IMG/VR virus record: IMGVR_UViG_3300021130_000224 | Location: 1 to 64,000 of that record | Length of the DNA stretch: 64,000 nt | Direction: 5' to 3' (one strand) | Source: a virus | In this document: piece after piece, positions 5,639-21,194 of the stretch | Position numbering within the stretch: the first letter of the stretch is position 1 | Layout of the letters: each line of letters starts with the position of its first letter | The notes under the pieces: generated by a model | Seen by the model: only the letters and a program-made list of their open reading frames with translations | The model's database searches: none | What the model was told of the DNA's origin: nothing | Position numbers and translations under genes: made by a program

Positions 5639-5938
5639 TTATATATTTTTAAATCTTTCACAAGCTGTCAAATAACCATTCTTGGCTTCTTCTGACCATC
5701 CATCAAATGATTCTGATTCGGCTTTTTCTATTTCAACAAGTAATTGTTCTTTCTGATATTGTGCTCCTGCTTTGAATGCTTCATAATCATTCTCTGCATT
5801 TTGAGTACTATAAACTTTGTTTTGATAATGTTCAGCAGCTTCTTTAAGAGTATCTGGTTTTATACCTTGTTCTCCCGCATCTCTAAGAATAGACTGTAAT
5901 AGACTATCAATAACAATAACCTTATCTTTTTTATTCAT
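5639..5938 (-). CDS. Hypothetical acidic helical protein, 99 aa
   Basis: The ATG at 5938 (MNKKDKVIVIDSLLQSIL) overlaps the end of the endonuclease gene by 8 bp. An earlier in-frame Met at 5962 would overlap more, so I chose 5938. The protein is helical and acidic, with repeated EA/EK stretches. It may have been separated from its original upstream neighbour (6430-7062) by insertion of the nuclease gene. Confidence 0.6.
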   Translation of the reverse strand: MNKKDKVIVIDSLLQSILRDAGEQGIKPDTLKEAAEHYQNKVYSTQNAENDYEAFKAGAQYQKEQLLVEIEKAESESFDGWSEEAKNGYLTACERFKNI

Positions 5939-6386
5939 TTTTATGTATTTTAAGGTAATCAATAGCCTCTTGTAATATGTCTATATTATCAGTAGACATT
6001 CCTAATAAATGATTACATCTATGACAAAGCAATCCTCTAATTTTTCCAGAATTATGACAGTGGTCTACTGATAGAAATCTTACGTTTAAGCTTCTATTTT
6101 TAGAAGTTTCAGGTTCTTTACATATAGCACAAACATTTCCCTGACTTTCTAACATTTTATCATAATCTGATAAAGTCATTCCAAATGTTCTTAGTAGATG
6201 GTTCTTCCTACTATTGGTAGCAAACTCTTTCTTCTTTCCTAAATACATTTCACTTGCACAACTTTTACATCTGAAATTTAAACCACAGGAAGCTCTTGCA
6301 TTTTTAGTAAAATTCTTTATAGGTAGTGTCTCCTTACATATGGAACACAGCTTCTTACCATCTATTATAGTTATCTTTTCGCTCAT
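5931..6386 (-). CDS. Endonuclease VII-family HNH nuclease, probable free-standing homing endonuclease
   Basis: 151 aa from the ATG at 6386. An N-terminal Cys4 zinc site (CSICKETLPIKNF... CKSCASE) is followed by the recombination endonuclease VII core: LRTFGMTLSDYDKMLESQGNVCAICKE, the catalytic LSVDHCH, and IRGLLCHRCNHLLGM. The family resolves branched DNA or makes site-specific breaks. The frame is open upstream to 6497, but the ATG at 6386 has the -7 promoter box ending 5 bp before it, which fixes the start. It sits between two unrelated genes and carries its own promoter, as an inserted selfish gene would. Confidence 0.88.
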   Translation of the reverse strand: MSEKITIIDGKKLCSICKETLPIKNFTKNARASCGLNFRCKSCASEMYLGKKKEFATNSRKNHLLRTFGMTLSDYDKMLESQGNVCAICKEPETSKNRSLNVRFLSVDHCHNSGKIRGLLCHRCNHLLGMSTDNIDILQEAIDYLKIHKNE

Positions 6387-6391
6387 GTAAA

Positions 6392-6423
6392 CAAAAGTAC
6401 AACTTTTGTATAAGATAACCAAA
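6392..6423 (-). promoter_or_regulatory. Bacteroidota-type promoter of the endonuclease VII gene, overlapped by a palindrome
   Basis: On the minus strand TTTG (6423-6420), 20 bp, TACTTTTG (6399-6392), then 5 nt and ATG. The -7 box lies inside a palindrome CAAAAGT-ACA-ACTTTTG (6392-6408), a candidate operator. Transcription would start at or inside the ATG region, giving a leaderless message. Confidence 0.7.
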
Positions 6424-6429
6424 TAAATT

Positions 6430-7062
6430 TTAAGGTCGAATATGCTGTAATACTTCTTTTTCACACTCTGGATAAGTAGTATCACCTGTAGCTCCAATCA
6501 CATACGCCAAGTTAATAGCTTCCTTTAGTTGCATTAAACTATAGTGATTAGATACTGAAACTTCATTAGAAATTACACAAACCTCGTTGTCTTTGGTGAG
6601 TTTGAGCTTTTCTTTAAAAATAACATGCTTCATTGTTGACCCTTCATGAATACGCTCTTCAGTATCTAACTCAACCTCATCTATCTCACCATTAGCAATT
6701 ACATACTTCTCAATGAATGATTGCGGTATAGCTGGTAAACCTAATGAAGGGTCTGTTGATGCTATTATTTTCTTCCAACCTTCCACATCTTGAAAAGCTG
6801 ATGGTATTTTATTTTGTATTACCTTATAATGATTTACACCATTATTAATACAAATAACCCAATCACCTTCCTTTATCTCTTCATCACTAAGAACCAGTAG
6901 TTGTTGTGGTTGCCAAATACCACCATCAAAATTATGGGTAGCTATTCTATATCTTTCTACAGCACCTGCTTCCTCAAAAGCTGGTTTTTTAATAAGATCA
7001 TCTGCTTTATAAATACCTTTATCTCCTAAAGGTATTGTTACTATTTGTACTGTCTTTTTCAT
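6430..7062 (-). CDS. Conserved Bacteroidota-phage protein of unknown function, 210 aa
   Basis: Pattern IKEGDWVICINNGVNHYKVIQ ... WKKIIASTDPSLGLPAIPQSFIEKYV is one I associate with proteins widespread in Bacteroidota phages: an SH3-like 'GDW' module followed by the 'LPxIPQSFIEKY' helix. No function is assigned to my knowledge. The C-terminal third (SNHYSLMQLKEAINLAYVIG) is helical. Part of the theme (GD-Y/W-V module) recurs in the 9234-10382 protein. Confidence 0.7.
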   Translation of the reverse strand: MKKTVQIVTIPLGDKGIYKADDLIKKPAFEEAGAVERYRIATHNFDGGIWQPQQLLVLSDEEIKEGDWVICINNGVNHYKVIQNKIPSAFQDVEGWKKIIASTDPSLGLPAIPQSFIEKYVIANGEIDEVELDTEERIHEGSTMKHVIFKEKLKLTKDNEVCVISNEVSVSNHYSLMQLKEAINLAYVIGATGDTTYPECEKEVLQHIRP

Positions 7063-7454: not shown

Positions 7455-7527
7455 GTAGTTCTATCTTGATTTGAACAAGATCTAACTCTGTCAAAGAGAG
7501 TTGTGCTACCGTTACACTATGGAACTA
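7455..7527 (-). tRNA. tRNA-Gln (anticodon TTG)
   Basis: On the minus strand the acceptor stem TAGTTCC pairs with AGAACTA (one mismatch). The D-arm is built on GTG/CAC, the anticodon stem ACTCT/AGAGT carries the loop CTTTGAC (anticodon TTG), and the T-stem TCTTG/CAAGA carries the loop TTCAAAT. CCA is not encoded. It decodes CAA, a common codon in this AT-rich phage. A 25-bp leader shared with the second tRNA precedes it. Confidence 0.82.
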
Positions 7528-7551
7528 TTTACCTGTCTCTCCAGGTTGTCA
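7528..7551 (-). repeat. tRNA leader repeat, copy 1
   Basis: On the minus strand TGACAACCTGGAGAGACAGG then TAAA directly precede tRNA-Gln. It matches copy 2 (7670-7695) at nearly all positions. It may be an RNase P or other processing context, or part of a duplicated tRNA unit. Confidence 0.7.
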
Positions 7552-7595
7552 CGATCCCCTTATTTCATACTGCCTCGTAGACCGTCAACGAGCTG

Positions 7596-7669
7596 TACCC
7601 CGGATTGGACTTGAACCAATGACTCTCAGTTTAGAAAACTGATGCTACTATCCACTGAGCTACCGAAGC
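7596..7669 (-). tRNA. tRNA-Arg (anticodon TCT)
   Basis: Minus-strand 74-nt gene: acceptor GCTTCGG/CCGGGGT with several G-T pairs and discriminator A; D-loop region TAGCTCAGTGGATAG; anticodon stem TCAGT/ACTGA with loop TTTCTAA (anticodon TCT); T-arm TTGG-TTCAAGT-CCAA. CCA is not encoded. It reads AGA, usually rare in hosts but frequent in this phage. It shares its leader with the tRNA-Gln. Confidence 0.88.
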
Positions 7670-8123: not shown

Positions 8124-8153
8124 GGAATCTGGTTAGCTTCCTAACCAGACTCC
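8124..8153 (-). terminator. Hairpin after the RS-repeat gene
   Basis: TCTGGTTAG (8128-8136) pairs perfectly with CTAACCAGA (8141-8149) around CTTC, extended by GGA/TCC beyond one mismatch. On the minus strand TTAGTTCTTT follows, a weak T-run. It is 27 bp downstream of the stop at 8180, a normal terminator position. It could instead be a 5' hairpin of the tRNA transcript if the TACCTTTG box just beside it is a promoter. Confidence 0.5.
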
Positions 8154-8160
8154 AAAGGTA
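8153..8160 (-). promoter_or_regulatory. Possible -7 box for the tRNA island
   Basis: On the minus strand TACCTTTG matches the Bacteroidota TAnnTTTG -7 consensus and lies upstream of the 31-aa ORF and the tRNAs. No good -33 TTTG was found at 17-23 bp, so this is weak. Confidence 0.3.
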
Positions 8161-8179
8161 ATATTATTTGGTTAATTAG

Positions 8180-8359
8180 TTAACCTGACTCTGACCATGA
8201 CCATGACCTTGACCTTGACCTTGACCTTGACCATGACCATGCCCCTGACTCTGACCATGCCCCTGACCATGACCATGCGCTTGACCATGACCATGCCCCT
8301 GACCTTGACCTTGACCTTGACCTTGACCTATTTAGTTTTTTTAAATGAGATGTTATCAT
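8180..8359 (-). CDS. Arg-Ser / Trp-Ser dipeptide-repeat protein, 59 aa
   Basis: ATG at 8359, only 2 bp after the stop of the 8362-8646 gene, opens [10 protein letters not shown] and then 24 dipeptides in which Ser is nearly always second: five RS units, then [24 protein letters not shown], four RS, two WS and ES, ending in Gly and TAA. The repeat is encoded exactly by the hexanucleotide array at 8185-8328. Stop, coupling to the upstream gene and the hairpin at 8124-8153 all suit a real gene. The other two minus frames meet stops just before the array. RS-rich stretches elsewhere bind RNA or are phosphorylated, but no function should be assumed. Confidence 0.5.
8185..8328. repeat. 24-unit hexanucleotide tandem repeat (nTGACC family)
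   Basis: Exactly 24 units of 6 bp: TTGACC (9 copies), ATGACC (5), CTGACC (4), ATGCCC (3), CTGACT (2) and ATGCGC (1). The variants are arranged in blocks (runs of four TTGACC at or near both ends), as expected from slippage plus point changes. There is no unique spacer, so it is not a CRISPR. It codes for the RS/WS protein on the minus strand. Confidence 0.95.
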
Positions 8360-8361
8360 AA

Positions 8362-8646
8362 TTACAAAGTTGTCTTAAATGATTTACCAAATGATTCTAT
8401 TGCAGATAACTGTACATACCACTCATCAGATAATTTTTGAGCATCTTTAAATTTACTATCTGAAAAAGTTCCTGTTTCAAATACCTGATAAACTTTTTCA
8501 AGTTTTATACAAGTTGTATTTACTCCTACTAATTTACCATAGTAAAAGTAATTAAAACAAAAAATCAGTACTTCTTCACCTATAAGTGAGACAAACCCTT
8601 CATTAGGAACTTCTACTAATTTTGCAGTAACTGGTTGTTGTAACAT
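8362..8646 (-). CDS. Hypothetical protein, 94 aa
   Basis: MLQQPVTAKLVEVPNEGFVSLIGEEVLIFCFNYFYYGKLVGV... looks like a small beta-barrel (Sm/SH3-like) with aromatic strands, followed by KLSDEWYVQLSAIESFGKSF. It could be an RNA- or protein-binding module, but I recognise no family. Next to the RS-repeat gene, with 2 bp between them. Confidence 0.6.
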   Translation of the reverse strand: MLQQPVTAKLVEVPNEGFVSLIGEEVLIFCFNYFYYGKLVGVNTTCIKLEKVYQVFETGTFSDSKFKDAQKLSDEWYVQLSAIESFGKSFKTTL

Positions 8647-10407: not shown

Positions 10408-10626
10408 TTACTTTTTCAGAAACTCTACCTCATCAGGATTACCTGTAAGCTTTTTGTAAATTAACTGTGCTTTAGCTGCAGATATTGCAGTACTGAACGC
10501 TTTGATGGAAAGATCACATACCTTGAGGTCCTTAGATTCTTCCCACTGTTTGTTAAGTGTATCACCAACATCAGTCATTTTTTCAATGACATCACTTACT
10601 GTTATTTTCTTTTTGCTTTTTTGCAT
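10408..10626 (-). CDS. Conserved small phage protein, 72 aa
   Basis: MQKSKKKITVSDVIEKMTDVGDTL ... AISAAKAQLIYKKLTGNPDEVEFLKK. The AKAQLIYKKLTG helix is typical of a small conserved protein in crAss-like and other Bacteroidota phages; I know of no function. It is helical and soluble. Its start overlaps the end of the upstream zinc-ribbon gene by 35 bp. Confidence 0.65.
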   Translation of the reverse strand: MQKSKKKITVSDVIEKMTDVGDTLNKQWEESKDLKVCDLSIKAFSTAISAAKAQLIYKKLTGNPDEVEFLKK

Positions 10627-11221
10627 CTCGTTTGAGTTTTAATTGTTTACGTTGAAGTTCTACAAGTTCTTGAGGAATATCGGAATGTTTAAGATTTGTA
10701 TCTAAAACAAGTGTTGATTTTATATAAATATCAGTAAGATTTTCACGTCTTTGTTTTGCAACTTCTCTAAAATATTCTCTTGTTTTAGCACTTCTGATAG
10801 GATCATTTTTCTTTCTGGCTCTATATTTTCTTCCATCAAGAACCATTTTTCCATTTTCCTTATATTTTAAATAGTATTTTTTTTCTTGTTCTTTTACTTT
10901 ATCAAGATTATTAATTCTCCATCTTTTTCTCTGTTCTGCTTTTGTAAGACCACAACATACCTTTTTTTTATATTCAGCAAGTGGAATTACTCCTTTTTCT
11001 CTATTACGTTTTATAATATATTCCAATACACGTTTTCTATGATTAAAATCTTCGTTGTATCTTTTAACATTTCTAATACGACAAGATTCTCTATCACAGT
11101 CAATACAAGTACCTCTTCTTTGTTTGATTTCTGAGTTTTTGTATTTTGTATGTATTCTATATTGCTCAATATCTTTTTCTTCACCACATTTTTTACAAAC
11201 TCTTGTTATAGATGGTACCAT
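10592..11221 (-). CDS. Zinc-ribbon protein, probable homing-endonuclease relative, 209 aa
   Basis: Start taken at ATG 11221 (MVPSITRVCKKCG). N-terminal Cys4 zinc site (CKKCGEEKDIEQY ... GTCIDCDRESCR), then a very basic region rich in Arg/Lys helices with KKYYLKYKENGKM and YRARKKNDPIRS, and a C-terminus with DIPQELVELQRKQLKLKRD, which I associate with phage GIY/HNH-type homing proteins. No complete HNH catalytic motif is visible, so the nuclease assignment is tentative. It overlaps genes on both sides (29 and 35 bp), as an inserted gene might. Confidence 0.6.
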   Translation of the reverse strand: MVPSITRVCKKCGEEKDIEQYRIHTKYKNSEIKQRRGTCIDCDRESCRIRNVKRYNEDFNHRKRVLEYIIKRNREKGVIPLAEYKKKVCCGLTKAEQRKRWRINNLDKVKEQEKKYYLKYKENGKMVLDGRKYRARKKNDPIRSAKTREYFREVAKQRRENLTDIYIKSTLVLDTNLKHSDIPQELVELQRKQLKLKRDAKKQKENNSK

Positions 11222-11456
11222 AAAGTAATGATTTATAAATTGCTGTAAATAATTCATGATCCCATTCATTCATATGATTGAGTTCATACTTATTACTATT
11301 AATAGCATTCTGGTTATATGGTCTGTAACAGTAACCATCTATCATAAAGGTCATTGCTAACCCTCTACACCATTCTGATAGTTCAGGCATTACTTTTATG
11401 TCAAAAGTCAATATTGGTCTTGTAATGCCATCAAAGTATAAATACAGTTTTTCCAT
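11193..11456 (-). CDS. Hypothetical protein, 87 aa
   Basis: MEKLYLYFDGITRPILTFDIKVMPELSEWCRG... YELNHMNEWDHELFTAIYKSLLYG; soluble, aromatic-rich. The last 9 residues lie within the start of the zinc-ribbon gene, which may have altered this C-terminus. Not recognised. Confidence 0.6.
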   Translation of the reverse strand: MEKLYLYFDGITRPILTFDIKVMPELSEWCRGLAMTFMIDGYCYRPYNQNAINSNKYELNHMNEWDHELFTAIYKSLLYGTIYNKSL

Positions 11457-17730: not shown

Positions 17731-18042
17731 ATGGCAACGGTTAAGAAACAGATATACATTAATACTGAACTTGAGTGGGCTGAACAAAAACTTCAGGAAT
17801 GGAAGCAGTATGTTGATGAAAACCCTTTTCAACACATGAAGGATCGTATTGAGTTCAAGCCTACTGCTAAAGGAGGATTGATACCAATGGTGATTGCATC
17901 AATTGAATCACAGATAAAGTGTGTTCGTGATACGATGAAAGAATATCTTGTACTTTTGGAACAAGTTGATAAAATGCGACAGGCTGAAGAACATAAGAAG
18001 AAAGATGTAAAAGGCGGTGCTGATCGACCATCCAGAATGTAA
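17731..18042 (+). CDS. Hypothetical helical protein just before terL, 103 aa
   Basis: MATVKKQIYINTELEWAEQKLQEWKQYVDENPF... then an amphipathic helical region and a basic tail. Its stop overlaps the terL ATG (TAATG). Position and size would suit a small terminase subunit, but no family motif is visible. Confidence 0.6.
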   Translation: MATVKKQIYINTELEWAEQKLQEWKQYVDENPFQHMKDRIEFKPTAKGGLIPMVIASIESQIKCVRDTMKEYLVLLEQVDKMRQAEEHKKKDVKGGADRPSRM

Positions 18043-21000
18043 TGATAGTTGAAAAGAAAATAAAAGAGATTAAATTCTCGGACTTCTTTAAAAACAAGAA
18101 GAGCATTCCTCCAAGGGGGTCAGATGCTTATGACAAACTTGTAAAGGAAGAAGAGGCAAGATGTTTAGGAGGTGTCATGGTCGATGGAGTATTTTTCTCC
18201 GGCTGGCTTTACTGGCACCTTAATCATTGGTGGATACGTGATGACATTGAGGACGAGTATGAAAATATTGTAAGACGTAAATTATTACCTTCTCTCCGGG
18301 ACAATGAGTGGATAGTTGCTCAATACCTTGAGGAATGTAGAGTAGAAAAGAAAGGTTACCTGCATATAGGTGTACGCCAGTTTGGTAAGAGTGAGATTAT
18401 GGCTTCTTACCAGGGTTATCATGCAACACTGTTTCAGAATACACAGAATGTAATAGTAGGTGGTAATGACTCTGACTTATCACTGTTAAAAGATAAAATT
18501 GACTTTGGTCTAAAAAATCTTTGGGAAGGATTACGTATCCCAATGCTTGATAAAGACTGGAGAAAACCCATGGTTCGTCTGGGACTTAAAGCAAAAGACA
18601 ACGATGATGAAGTATGGTCATATCTTATCATCAGGAACGTAGCGGATGGTAAGAATACAGAAGGTCCTGCCGGTGTTACAGCTAAAGCTTATGCAACCGA
18701 TGAGATTGGTAAGTTTCCATTTGCACAATCTTTTGAAGCTGCAAAGCCGGCCTTTAAATCTAAATTCGGTTGGCGTTGTGTACCACTATTGTTCGGATGT
18801 GTATGTGCAGGAACAAAAGTATGGACAAATAATGGGAATTTTATAAACATTGAAAATCTTGTACCTGAAAATGGAATTATAGGGTATAACGGAGAAGAAA
18901 GTTCAAAAGAAATTATTACTTATTGGCAACCTCCTTTTGAAAAGCCTTGCTATAAAATAGCAACTAACACCGGAAGATACTTAGAATGTAGCGAAGATCA
19001 CCCTATTTTATATAGAGCACGAGATGAAAAAGAAGGGCATAGATCTAAAAGGGTTCGTAAAGTTTATTTTAAAGAAGCAAAAGATATTCAAGTAGGAAAT
19101 CAAATAGCTGTAATAGAGAACGTAGATATTTTTTCTGAAAAAGAAATGTGGGAACCTAGGGTAGTAGGATGGTTGATAGGAGATGGTTCTTATGGGTTTG
19201 ATAAAACACCAGTACTTTCAAATTGTGATTTAGAAATAAACTCATATATAGAAAACAATTTAAACACTAAAACAGAAAGTACATATCTTACAAAAGATGG
19301 TAGGGTATATAAAGAAACACGTATAAAAGATATTTGTAAAGAACTGAGGAAAATAGGTATATACGGGCAAACAAAACTTAAAAAAACTTTGCCTATAGAA
19401 GTACATTCTTATTCTAAATATGCTATAACAGAATTATTAGGCGGTTTATTTGATACAGATGGTACAGTTGGTGGATACAATAAAGGAATACCTATTATAG
19501 CATTAGCAGCTTCTTCTGAATTTCTCCTAAAAGAAGTTCAGTTTTTACTTCAAAAATTAGGTATACATTGTACCATAAAAAGAATTAAAGCAAATATTAA
19601 AGAAGGAAGAAAAGACAGAAATGATCATTACAGATTATCTATTTGTGATAAAAAAAGTATAAAGATGTTTTATGAACAAATTTCTTTTTACGTTAAATAC
19701 AAACAAGAAAATCTGTCTAAGTGTGTTGAAAGATTAAATTCTAAAAAAGAGCAAATACCAAAAGAATTAAAAGGCATTAGATTAGAAAGGGTAGTTAGTG
19801 TAGAGTATATAGGAATTAAACCTGTGTATAATCTTACTGCAGGCACTACTAATACATATATTGCTAATGGTATCGTTACTCATAATACCGGAGGCTCTTT
19901 TGAAAAGGGAGCTGATGCTGAACGATTCTTTTACCACCCGGATGCCAACAACTTCCTAGCAGTAACTGATCCTATAACAGCCGAAAGAACTTGTGTGTTT
20001 ATGTCGGGTCTGTACCGCCTTGATTGCAAGTATGAAACTACGCTTGGTGATTATCTTCGGAAGGAAGGAAAGATAACACATGATACAAAAGAGCTGAACA
20101 AAATACCATTCCATGCTTCTGACAAAATAAAAGCCCTTGAGACAATCAAGGCAGAAAGAGCAAATAAAGCACTTGACCCTGATCAGACAGAGTACCTGAA
20201 ACTTATCATGTACTATCCTCTAACTCCAAAAGAGTGTTTCCTTTCTTCATCTGAAAATTACTTCAATGGAGATATTGCCCGAAACCAGAAGGAAAGACTC
20301 GAGGTCATGTTTCCTGGGCTTAAGGTTGGTATGTATGTTGATCTCTATGAAGAGGAGGGTATTATAAAACACAAACCTTCAACCAGATTACCTGTCTCTT
20401 CATTCCCTAAAGGACCAAAAGAAGATACCAACTGCCCGATAGTAATACTAGAGCACCCCGGCCCCATGCCTCCTTATGGTTTATTTGTTGCTGGGATTGA
20501 CCCTTACCGTTTTGAGAAAGCTCCAAACTCGGATTCATTGGGGGCAATTTATATATTTAAAAGAGCATATGATGCTTTAAGTGATAGCTTTCAAGACATG
20601 CCGGTTGCTTGGTACGTGGCTAGGCCAGACAGCAAAGACACTTGGAACAACAATGTAAGACTACTGATCAAGTACTACAATGCAATTGCACTTTGCGAAA
20701 ATGATGAGATGTCATTTATTGATTATATGATTGCAAAAGGGGATGGTCACATGCTCATGGATACTCCTGATTGGATCAAAGAGTACAGTCCTACAAGTAG
20801 TGCTAACCTCAGACAGAAAGGCGTAAGCTCTTCTCCAAGAAACATTGAGCTATTTAATACTAACCTAAAGCAGTACATGGAAGAGTACTTTGCATCTGCT
20901 CCGGTTCCCGGCTCTGAGGAGACAAGAAAGGTACTTGGTGTTGCCAAGATTTACGATTCTGTATTACTTGATGAGATTATTAAATGGAACAAAGATGGTA

Positions 21001-21194
21001 ACTTTGACCGCATCAGGGCATTGTCAATTGCAATTACCTGTGCAAGAAAAATGGATTTACAACGTATTCAACCACAAGTTGAAGATAATGAACCACAAGT
21101 AGTAAAACCTAAACGGAGGAGAAGTGGTCCATTTAAAGAAATGAACAGTACTATATTTGGCCCGAGAGGGAGTATAAACAGACTTTTTAAATAA
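18042..21194 (+). CDS. terL: Terminase large subunit, interrupted by an intein (1050 aa precursor)
   Basis: Packaging motor ATPase and nuclease. Walker A-type VRQFGKSE (residues 111-118) and Walker B-type YATDEIG (217-223) lie in the N-terminal extein. The coupling motif FGTGGS is split by the intein between FG (252) and TGG (616). The nuclease half has VAGIDPYRF, ALCENDEMSF and the final FDRIRALS acid. After removal of the 363-residue intein the enzyme is 687 aa, normal for crAss-like phages. No HNH or holliday-type fusion is seen. Starts at the overlapping ATG 18042, coupled to the upstream gene. Confidence 0.93.
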   Translation: MIVEKKIKEIKFSDFFKNKKSIPPRGSDAYDKLVKEEEARCLGGVMVDGVFFSGWLYWHLNHWWIRDDIEDEYENIVRRKLLPSLRDNEWIVAQYLEECRVEKKGYLHIGVRQFGKSEIMASYQGYHATLFQNTQNVIVGGNDSDLSLLKDKIDFGLKNLWEGLRIPMLDKDWRKPMVRLGLKAKDNDDEVWSYLIIRNVADGKNTEGPAGVTAKAYATDEIGKFPFAQSFEAAKPAFKSKFGWRCVPLLFGCVCAGTKVWTNNGNFINIENLVPENGIIGYNGEESSKEIITYWQPPFEKPCYKIATNTGRYLECSEDHPILYRARDEKEGHRSKRVRKVYFKEAKDIQVGNQIAVIENVDIFSEKEMWEPRVVGWLIGDGSYGFDKTPVLSNCDLEINSYIENNLNTKTESTYLTKDGRVYKETRIKDICKELRKIGIYGQTKLKKTLPIEVHSYSKYAITELLGGLFDTDGTVGGYNKGIPIIALAASSEFLLKEVQFLLQKLGIHCTIKRIKANIKEGRKDRNDHYRLSICDKKSIKMFYEQISFYVKYKQENLSKCVERLNSKKEQIPKELKGIRLERVVSVEYIGIKPVYNLTAGTTNTYIANGIVTHNTGGSFEKGADAERFFYHPDANNFLAVTDPITAERTCVFMSGLYRLDCKYETTLGDYLRKEGKITHDTKELNKIPFHASDKIKALETIKAERANKALDPDQTEYLKLIMYYPLTPKECFLSSSENYFNGDIARNQKERLEVMFPGLKVGMYVDLYEEEGIIKHKPSTRLPVSSFPKGPKEDTNCPIVILEHPGPMPPYGLFVAGIDPYRFEKAPNSDSLGAIYIFKRAYDALSDSFQDMPVAWYVARPDSKDTWNNNVRLLIKYYNAIALCENDEMSFIDYMIAKGDGHMLMDTPDWIKEYSPTSSANLRQKGVSSSPRNIELFNTNLKQYMEEYFASAPVPGSEETRKVLGVAKIYDSVLLDEIIKWNKDGNFDRIRALSIAITCARKMDLQRIQPQVEDNEPQVVKPKRRRSGPFKEMNSTIFGPRGSINRLFK
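18798..19886 (+). mobile_element. Intein with LAGLIDADG homing endonuclease (363 aa) in TerL
   Basis: Begins at Cys253 (CVCAGTKVWTNNG, block A), has block B CSEDHPIL with Ser where Thr is usual, two LAGLIDADG motifs (VVGWLIGDGSYG and LLGGLFDTDGTV), and ends with blocks F/G VYNLTAGTTNTY-IANGIVTHN before Thr616 (+1 nucleophile). Cys1, the penultimate His and the final Asn are present, so self-splicing is expected. The DNA is richer in A/T than the flanking exteins, consistent with horizontal gain. Insertion lies exactly in the conserved ATPase coupling motif, a classic intein target. Confidence 0.95.

Follow-up and report, generated by a model that had tools for sequence, protein, structure and literature searches.

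In eukaryotes, an RNA-processing fold is combined with a low-complexity, Arg-rich chain in the SR proteins, which have RS domains, and in Sm proteins, which have RG-rich tails. The pair of phage genes analyzed here resembles both, in its Arg-Ser dipeptides and in the association of such a fold with an Arg-rich chain. However, the variable (X) position of the phage dipeptides is occupied by Arg, Trp and Gly in near-equal parts, neither an RRM nor any Pfam domain was found in the 59-residue repeat protein, whereas SR proteins join an RRM to an Arg-Ser domain that SR kinases phosphorylate, and the resemblance does not imply common descent. Closer to phages, a solved Sm-like protein is reportedly of putative cyanophage origin. 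Members of the Sm/LSm/Hfq superfamily, such as Lsm1-7 (4m75), archaeal SmAP (1i8f) and the Sm protein of P. abyssi (1h64), have a small five-stranded barrel like that predicted for the upstream phage protein. Yet the phage protein shows no significant sequence match to them and no visible Sm2 Arg-Gly motif, and it is encoded by a phage beside a repeat gene. The fold is probably also common to the DUF6948 proteins of uncultured Caudovirales phages, several of which are among the viral-library matches in structure searches with Foldseek, whereas our proteins gave no above-cut-off Pfam match. Our literature search found no paper on DUF6948, and we know of no association of these proteins with repeat genes. 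Concerning the repeat itself, the C9orf72 hexanucleotide expansion yields arginine-rich dipeptide-repeat proteins that are reported to stick to RNA or ribosomes (PMC8021787, PMC8096919). Those products reportedly derive from a disease expansion by non-canonical translation, whereas the phage protein belongs to an ordinary gene that has a start codon, mixes R, W and G, and is under selection at the amino-acid level. CrAss-like phages also have tandem-repeat evolution hot spots, for instance the BACON domain repeats (PMC6949934), but there the repeated units are whole domains, while in the locus described here the unit is two residues.

The stretch of DNA analyzed, hereafter the window, covers 64 kb of a virus record that is 108 kb long. 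Its terminase, portal and major head proteins are of known phage types and, in our judgement, the overall genome layout looks crAss-like. An earlier note on the window had described a 59-residue RS/WS dipeptide-repeat protein made of 24 six-base units, starting 2 bp past the upstream gene and followed by a hairpin, and all these elements were recovered (Table 1). The ORF consists of the leader, the 24 units, a single Gly codon and a TAA stop, and the junction with the preceding 94-residue gene reads TAA, TT, ATG. The array had also been called pure; its period is exactly six, yet the units are of five kinds (AGGTCA and TGGTCA nine times each, GGGGCA three times, GAGTCA twice and AGCGCA once). 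Tandem Repeats Finder (TRF) placed the strongest array of the window at 8192-8329, with scores of 143 for period 6 and 176 for period 18. Since five of the six frames through this period-6 array are free of stops, the openness of the ORF is uninformative; a long ORF by itself is weak evidence of coding, and comparison with relatives fills that gap. Not one but two hairpins lie past the gene and likely mark the end of the operon. Two related loci, L047 and L048, have at the same place, right at the repeat-gene stop, a hairpin (ACACTCTAG...CTAGAGTGT) that resembles a terminator and has a T-run behind it, which suggests that the repeat gene closes the operon there.

Table 1. Coordinates of the repeat gene, its partner and adjoining features in the window.
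Feature	Position	Strand	Basis or comparison
RS/WS/GS dipeptide-repeat gene, 59 aa	8180-8359	-	ORF; position, leader and amino-acid repeat conserved in relatives with other codons
Non-repeat leader of the repeat gene, 10 residues	8330-8359	-	MITSH leader common to L047, L048, L053 and L056; leader type tracks Sm-like subfamily
24-unit hexanucleotide array encoding X-Ser (or X-Ala) dipeptides, X = R/W/G/E/S	8186-8329	-	Unit number and order differ from L047 and L048
2-nt gap between Sm-like gene stop and repeat gene ATG	8360-8361	-	Most relatives have either an ATGA overlap or a short gap
Partner gene, encoding a 94-aa protein with a predicted Sm/LSm fold	8362-8646	-	AlphaFold2 pLDDT 93.6, pTM 0.80; Foldseek PDB matches
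Two hairpins just 3' of the repeat gene	8124-8185 (8170-8185 and 8124-8153)	-	MFE -29.1 kcal/mol, z = -4.2
tRNA-Gln(UUG) and tRNA-Arg(UCU)	7455-7669	-	Downstream of the repeat gene; L047 has both, most other relatives do not

A search with the upstream 94-residue protein alone retrieved 11 loci and, in all 11, the ORF directly downstream is a short leader followed by a run of [Arg/Trp/Gly]-Ser dipeptides. Some of them encode Ser as TCA, others as AGT and a single one as AGC; TCN and AGY codons cannot be interconverted by a single base change without leaving Ser. Scans by Ser codon type brought in many more virus contigs, with X-Ser arrays built on TCA, TCT, TCG, AGT and AGC among the matches listed. 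For an unbiased measure of the pairing, the upstream protein was aligned separately for its two subfamilies (A3 and A4), and these alignments were searched against virus contigs blind to the repeat. Among the loci with at least 80 bases downstream, an ORF with an uninterrupted run of five or more Arg/Trp/Gly-Ser dipeptides, no more than 900 bases downstream, was present in 135 of 153 (88%) and absent at this threshold from 18. The repeat ORF was likewise present at 10 of 13 Sm-like loci on genome MAG contigs labelled as very different bacteria and one archaeon, contigs that may themselves be phage. In the reverse direction, repeat ORFs found by DNA pattern and having a start codon and 700 bases upstream were preceded on the same strand by an Sm-like gene in 90 of 112 cases, and several of the remaining ones are extra copies at loci with tandem repeat genes. 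At L062, L092, L163, L287, L089 and L135, between three and about ten repeat genes stand in tandem as a family with a shared leader and differing arrays, and most of these loci have a single Sm-like gene nearby. The spacing is tight: among 120 non-redundant pairs, 49 overlap and 37 lie within 15 nt of each other (86 together). Clustering of the neighbours revealed no conserved third gene beyond the pair. Those that could be named are mostly genes of replication, recombination and DNA methylation, which suggests early expression of the module.

Hundreds of environmental phage contigs carry the repeat gene, usually beside the Sm-like gene. In GenBank phage records we found the pair only twice, in MW202573 and MW202825, both derived from spring-water metagenomes. 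The repeat protein of the former (43 aa) is annotated as hypothetical; in the latter the Sm-like gene and the first repeat ORF are unannotated and a second repeat ORF just after is called hypothetical. In the literature covered, searches for the repeat strings or the pairing returned no relevant paper and one unrelated string match; an earlier mention may exist elsewhere. The earlier note knew of no phage parallel, which stands for the literature searched and fails in nature, where the gene is common and its Sm-like neighbour had gone unrecognized. A widespread phage module made of an Sm-like protein and a hypervariable RS/WS/GS repeat protein has apparently not been described.

Run with 74 relatives, AlphaFold2 confidently predicted the 94-residue protein to be a five-stranded barrel with strands at residues 25-30, 34-42, 46-57, 68-79 and 83-88. 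Nearly all of the best 50 Foldseek matches in the PDB were Sm/LSm proteins (Lsm1-7, archaeal SmAP and spliceosomal Sm), the best being 4m75_K (E 5e-4, TM-score by target 0.77). The second subfamily, only about 15-25% identical to the first, also gave a confident barrel (pLDDT 90.8) and mostly Sm/LSm matches, none of them with E below 0.001. The five-stranded Sm (SH3-like) barrel is thus present in the predicted structures of both subfamilies. At the sequence level the Pfam LSM profile remained sub-threshold (E 0.065, 13.4 bits against a cut-off of 23.4), and a PDB sequence search found no relevant match. Pfam and NCBIfam gave no match above cut-off, PHROGs none with a convincing E-value and PADLOC-DB models none at all for either protein of the pair. 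By eye, a strongly conserved G-K-L-x-G-V-N-x-x-C-x-x-L stretch in alignment A3 is similar to Sm1 (G-x-L ... D/N ... L) with one residue less, whereas the Sm2 Arg-Gly motif is not conserved, the end of the alignment reading S-A-I-E-S-F-G at that place. We therefore regard the upstream protein as Sm-like, a membership that rests on predicted structure, and classical Sm RNA binding is not assured because the Sm2 Arg-Gly motif is absent and no profile passes its cut-off. The leader of the repeat protein is matched to the subfamily of its partner. Its K/R fraction averages 0.32 with subfamily 1 versus 0.08 with subfamily 2, and leaders of the MNxA type accompany 4 of 59 members of the first and 49 of 61 of the second. 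We would expect such co-variation if the leader contacts the Sm-like protein; shared operon descent could yield an identical pattern.

In a typical repeat protein a short leader precedes about 8-45 X-Ser dipeptides; Arg, Gly and Trp each account for close to a third of the X residues, and their order is not fixed. Its net charge has a median of +9, with very few acidic residues. In 111 arrays with 10 units or more, entropy at positions 1 to 6 of the unit averaged 1.53, 0.26, 0.15, 0.01, 0.01 and 0.12 bits. Base 1 sets the residue, Gly (GGG), Trp (TGG) or Arg (CGG, AGG), and the third base of the Ser codon, synonymously free, is nearly invariant within an array. The arrays are thus homogenized at synonymous sites, as expected for unequal exchange or slippage, and mixed at the single site that sets the amino acid. 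The shares of Arg, Gly and Trp at the X position (0.31, 0.32 and 0.29) show no significant correlation with GC content. From low to high GC, in turn, AGG falls from 0.25 to 0.03 while CGG rises from 0.08 to 0.28 (rho -0.79). A DNA-level requirement for NGG, such as a PAM decoy, was not supported, since at base 1 only A and C trade places as GC content changes, and T and G do not follow it. The Ser codon class switches between TCN and AGY a minimum of 5 and as many as 15 times on the tree of the Sm-like protein, a count made on short proteins with many unresolved forks; the arrays seem to have been repeatedly replaced or rebuilt while the kind of protein stayed constant. Since codon families and composition conserve amino acids and not DNA, the conserved coding frame is the [Arg/Trp/Gly]-Ser frame, the same that had been translated in the earlier note, with identical amino acids reached through different Ser codon families. 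The alternative frames, Gly-Gln/His on the minus strand and Leu/Met-Thr and Asp-Leu/His on the plus strand, are lost when the Ser codons become AGY. A diversity-generating retroelement, whose adenine mutagenesis would turn AGG into NGG and give R/W/G, was not supported either, as the A of TCA is fixed within arrays. Among the Ser codons TCC is nearly missing, with 15 of about 2,300 and dominance in none of the 111 arrays. This avoidance could be explained by the near self-complementarity of NGGTCC, in which GGTCC self-pairs around a T-T mismatch, or by the AvaII-type sites that NGGTCC repeats make.

Repeat number was compared in 39 pairs of complete loci with upstream DNA at least 90% identical. 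The length of the repeat gene differs in 26 of the 39, a figure drawn from contigs of different samples in which some length differences could be repeat assembly errors. Assembly error is unlikely as a general cause because the order of the units changes and the frame is kept. Pairs with 100% identical upstream DNA encode 44 and 72, 72 and 42, 77 and 61, 71 and 67, 63 and 61, and 61 and 59 residues. The window and L047, 99.7% identical upstream, encode 59 and 55 residues with a clearly different order of units. In the closest pairs (99.7-100% upstream identity) the differences are even numbers of residues, that is, whole six-base units. The proposal of a tunable protein, variable in repeat number with its frame intact, is borne out by these pairs, and relatives with frame-breaking unit lengths, which would have spoken against it, were seen in none of the 39.

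Taken jointly, we regard the coding frame, the gene pairing, the predicted Sm fold, the selection at the amino-acid level and the in-frame variation as shown computationally and, together, as very likely. As to function, a multivalent RNA-binding assembly is the simplest reading because the tail is basic, with Arg and Trp, and the partner is Sm-like. The first gene would encode an Sm/LSm-fold protein and the second, coupled to it, a basic repeat protein with a partner-matched leader. The Sm-like protein, probably a ring, may be the docking site of the leader, and the X-Ser tail may be a disordered sticker-and-spacer polymer in which Arg and Trp would bind RNA through charge and stacking while Gly and Ser would provide flexibility. 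The pair would then form a multivalent RNA-binding, possibly condensate-forming, assembly early in infection. Its strength would depend on repeat number and on the Arg:Trp:Gly mix and could be re-tuned fast, as units of the array are gained, lost and shuffled with the frame kept. We favour this translated two-gene module as a whole only tentatively, at somewhat less than even chances. That it is a phage RNA-granule system built on an Sm-like protein, its hexanucleotide array, selected for equal Arg, Trp and Gly, being a rapidly re-tuned sticker polymer, is a possibility we hold more doubtfully.

The main rivals to an RNA-binding assembly are a membrane-active Arg/Trp peptide and a protein that shuts off the host by coating RNA or ribosomes. 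In the first, which we consider unlikely, the repeat protein would be a cationic membrane peptide (a toxin, a superinfection exclusion factor or a lysis helper) under the control of the Sm-like protein, which would act on either its mRNA or the peptide. A chain in which Ser alternates with Arg and Trp is indeed short, strongly basic and Trp-rich, similar in make-up to the Arg/Trp-rich antimicrobial peptides, the coupled two-gene layout recalls a toxin and its regulator, and no homologue has a known function. However, by eye the leaders have no hydrophobic stretch sufficient for a signal peptide or membrane helix, a chain more than half of which is Gly and Ser is better suited to a soluble, flexible polymer, and PADLOC gave no match. 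In the second, also improbable, the repeat protein would stick to RNA or ribosomes and shut off host gene expression, with the Sm-like protein delivering or restraining it. Fast variation suits a conflict with the host, the replication genes that prevail among the named neighbours point to a probable early region, and C9orf72 and phage hexanucleotide arrays both give Arg-containing dipeptide repeats (for C9orf72, PMC8021787 and PMC8096919). Yet the likeness is confined to Arg, and those products have nothing that corresponds to Trp or to the equal thirds. We give a small chance to an ordered beta fibre or sheet, with Ser on one face and R/W/G on the other, as a scaffold or a virion or cell-surface element. 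Strict alternation over tens of residues in relatives suits a two-faced strand, and length variation fits a fibre, but a face on which Gly, Arg and Trp follow one another at random, a third of it Gly, is ill suited to a stable fibre, and the sampled neighbours are mainly DNA-metabolism and not structural genes. Finally, a DNA element (a recombination hot spot, protein-binding array or decoy) with the frame as a by-product of period 6 would agree with the five open frames and the long, repetitive, variable arrays, but such a non-coding array is ruled out, or very nearly so, by codon-family switching and composition: its core changes from GGTCN to GGAGY, as Ser codons alone explain, R:G:W stays constant while AGG and CGG track GC content, and the array sits behind, and coupled to, an Sm-like gene with a matched leader.

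With order free and composition constant across phages at about a third each of Arg, Gly and Trp, plus Ser, the repeat protein offers a rare natural experiment on selection for composition. The predicted Sm-like partner makes the idea of phage ribonucleoprotein assemblies directly testable with two small genes. If the RNA-granule reading is true, these phages would hold a natural, functional and evolvable counterpart of the arginine-rich dipeptide-repeat proteins. The locus also illustrates how a phage gene that is common can escape notice through short-ORF annotation and low-complexity masking, as the family libraries searched do not include it.

Three other features of the window deserve mention. 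A short way past the AGG-rich repeat gene is the tRNA-Arg(UCU) at 7595-7669 (minus strand), which can read AGA and AGG. Of the relatives examined, it was detected in L047 alone; it could decode the AGG codons of the array, with uncertain relevance. The gene of the terminase large subunit, 18042-21194 on the plus strand, is interrupted by an apparent intein with a LAGLIDADG-type endonuclease ('NTYIANGIVTHN' near its end), and the best PHROG terminase match covers the part of the gene after the intein. At some distance, the region is flanked by two minus-strand ORFs, 5931-6497 and 10592-11269, with zinc-ribbon or HNH-like Cys-His patterns, which are possible homing endonucleases.
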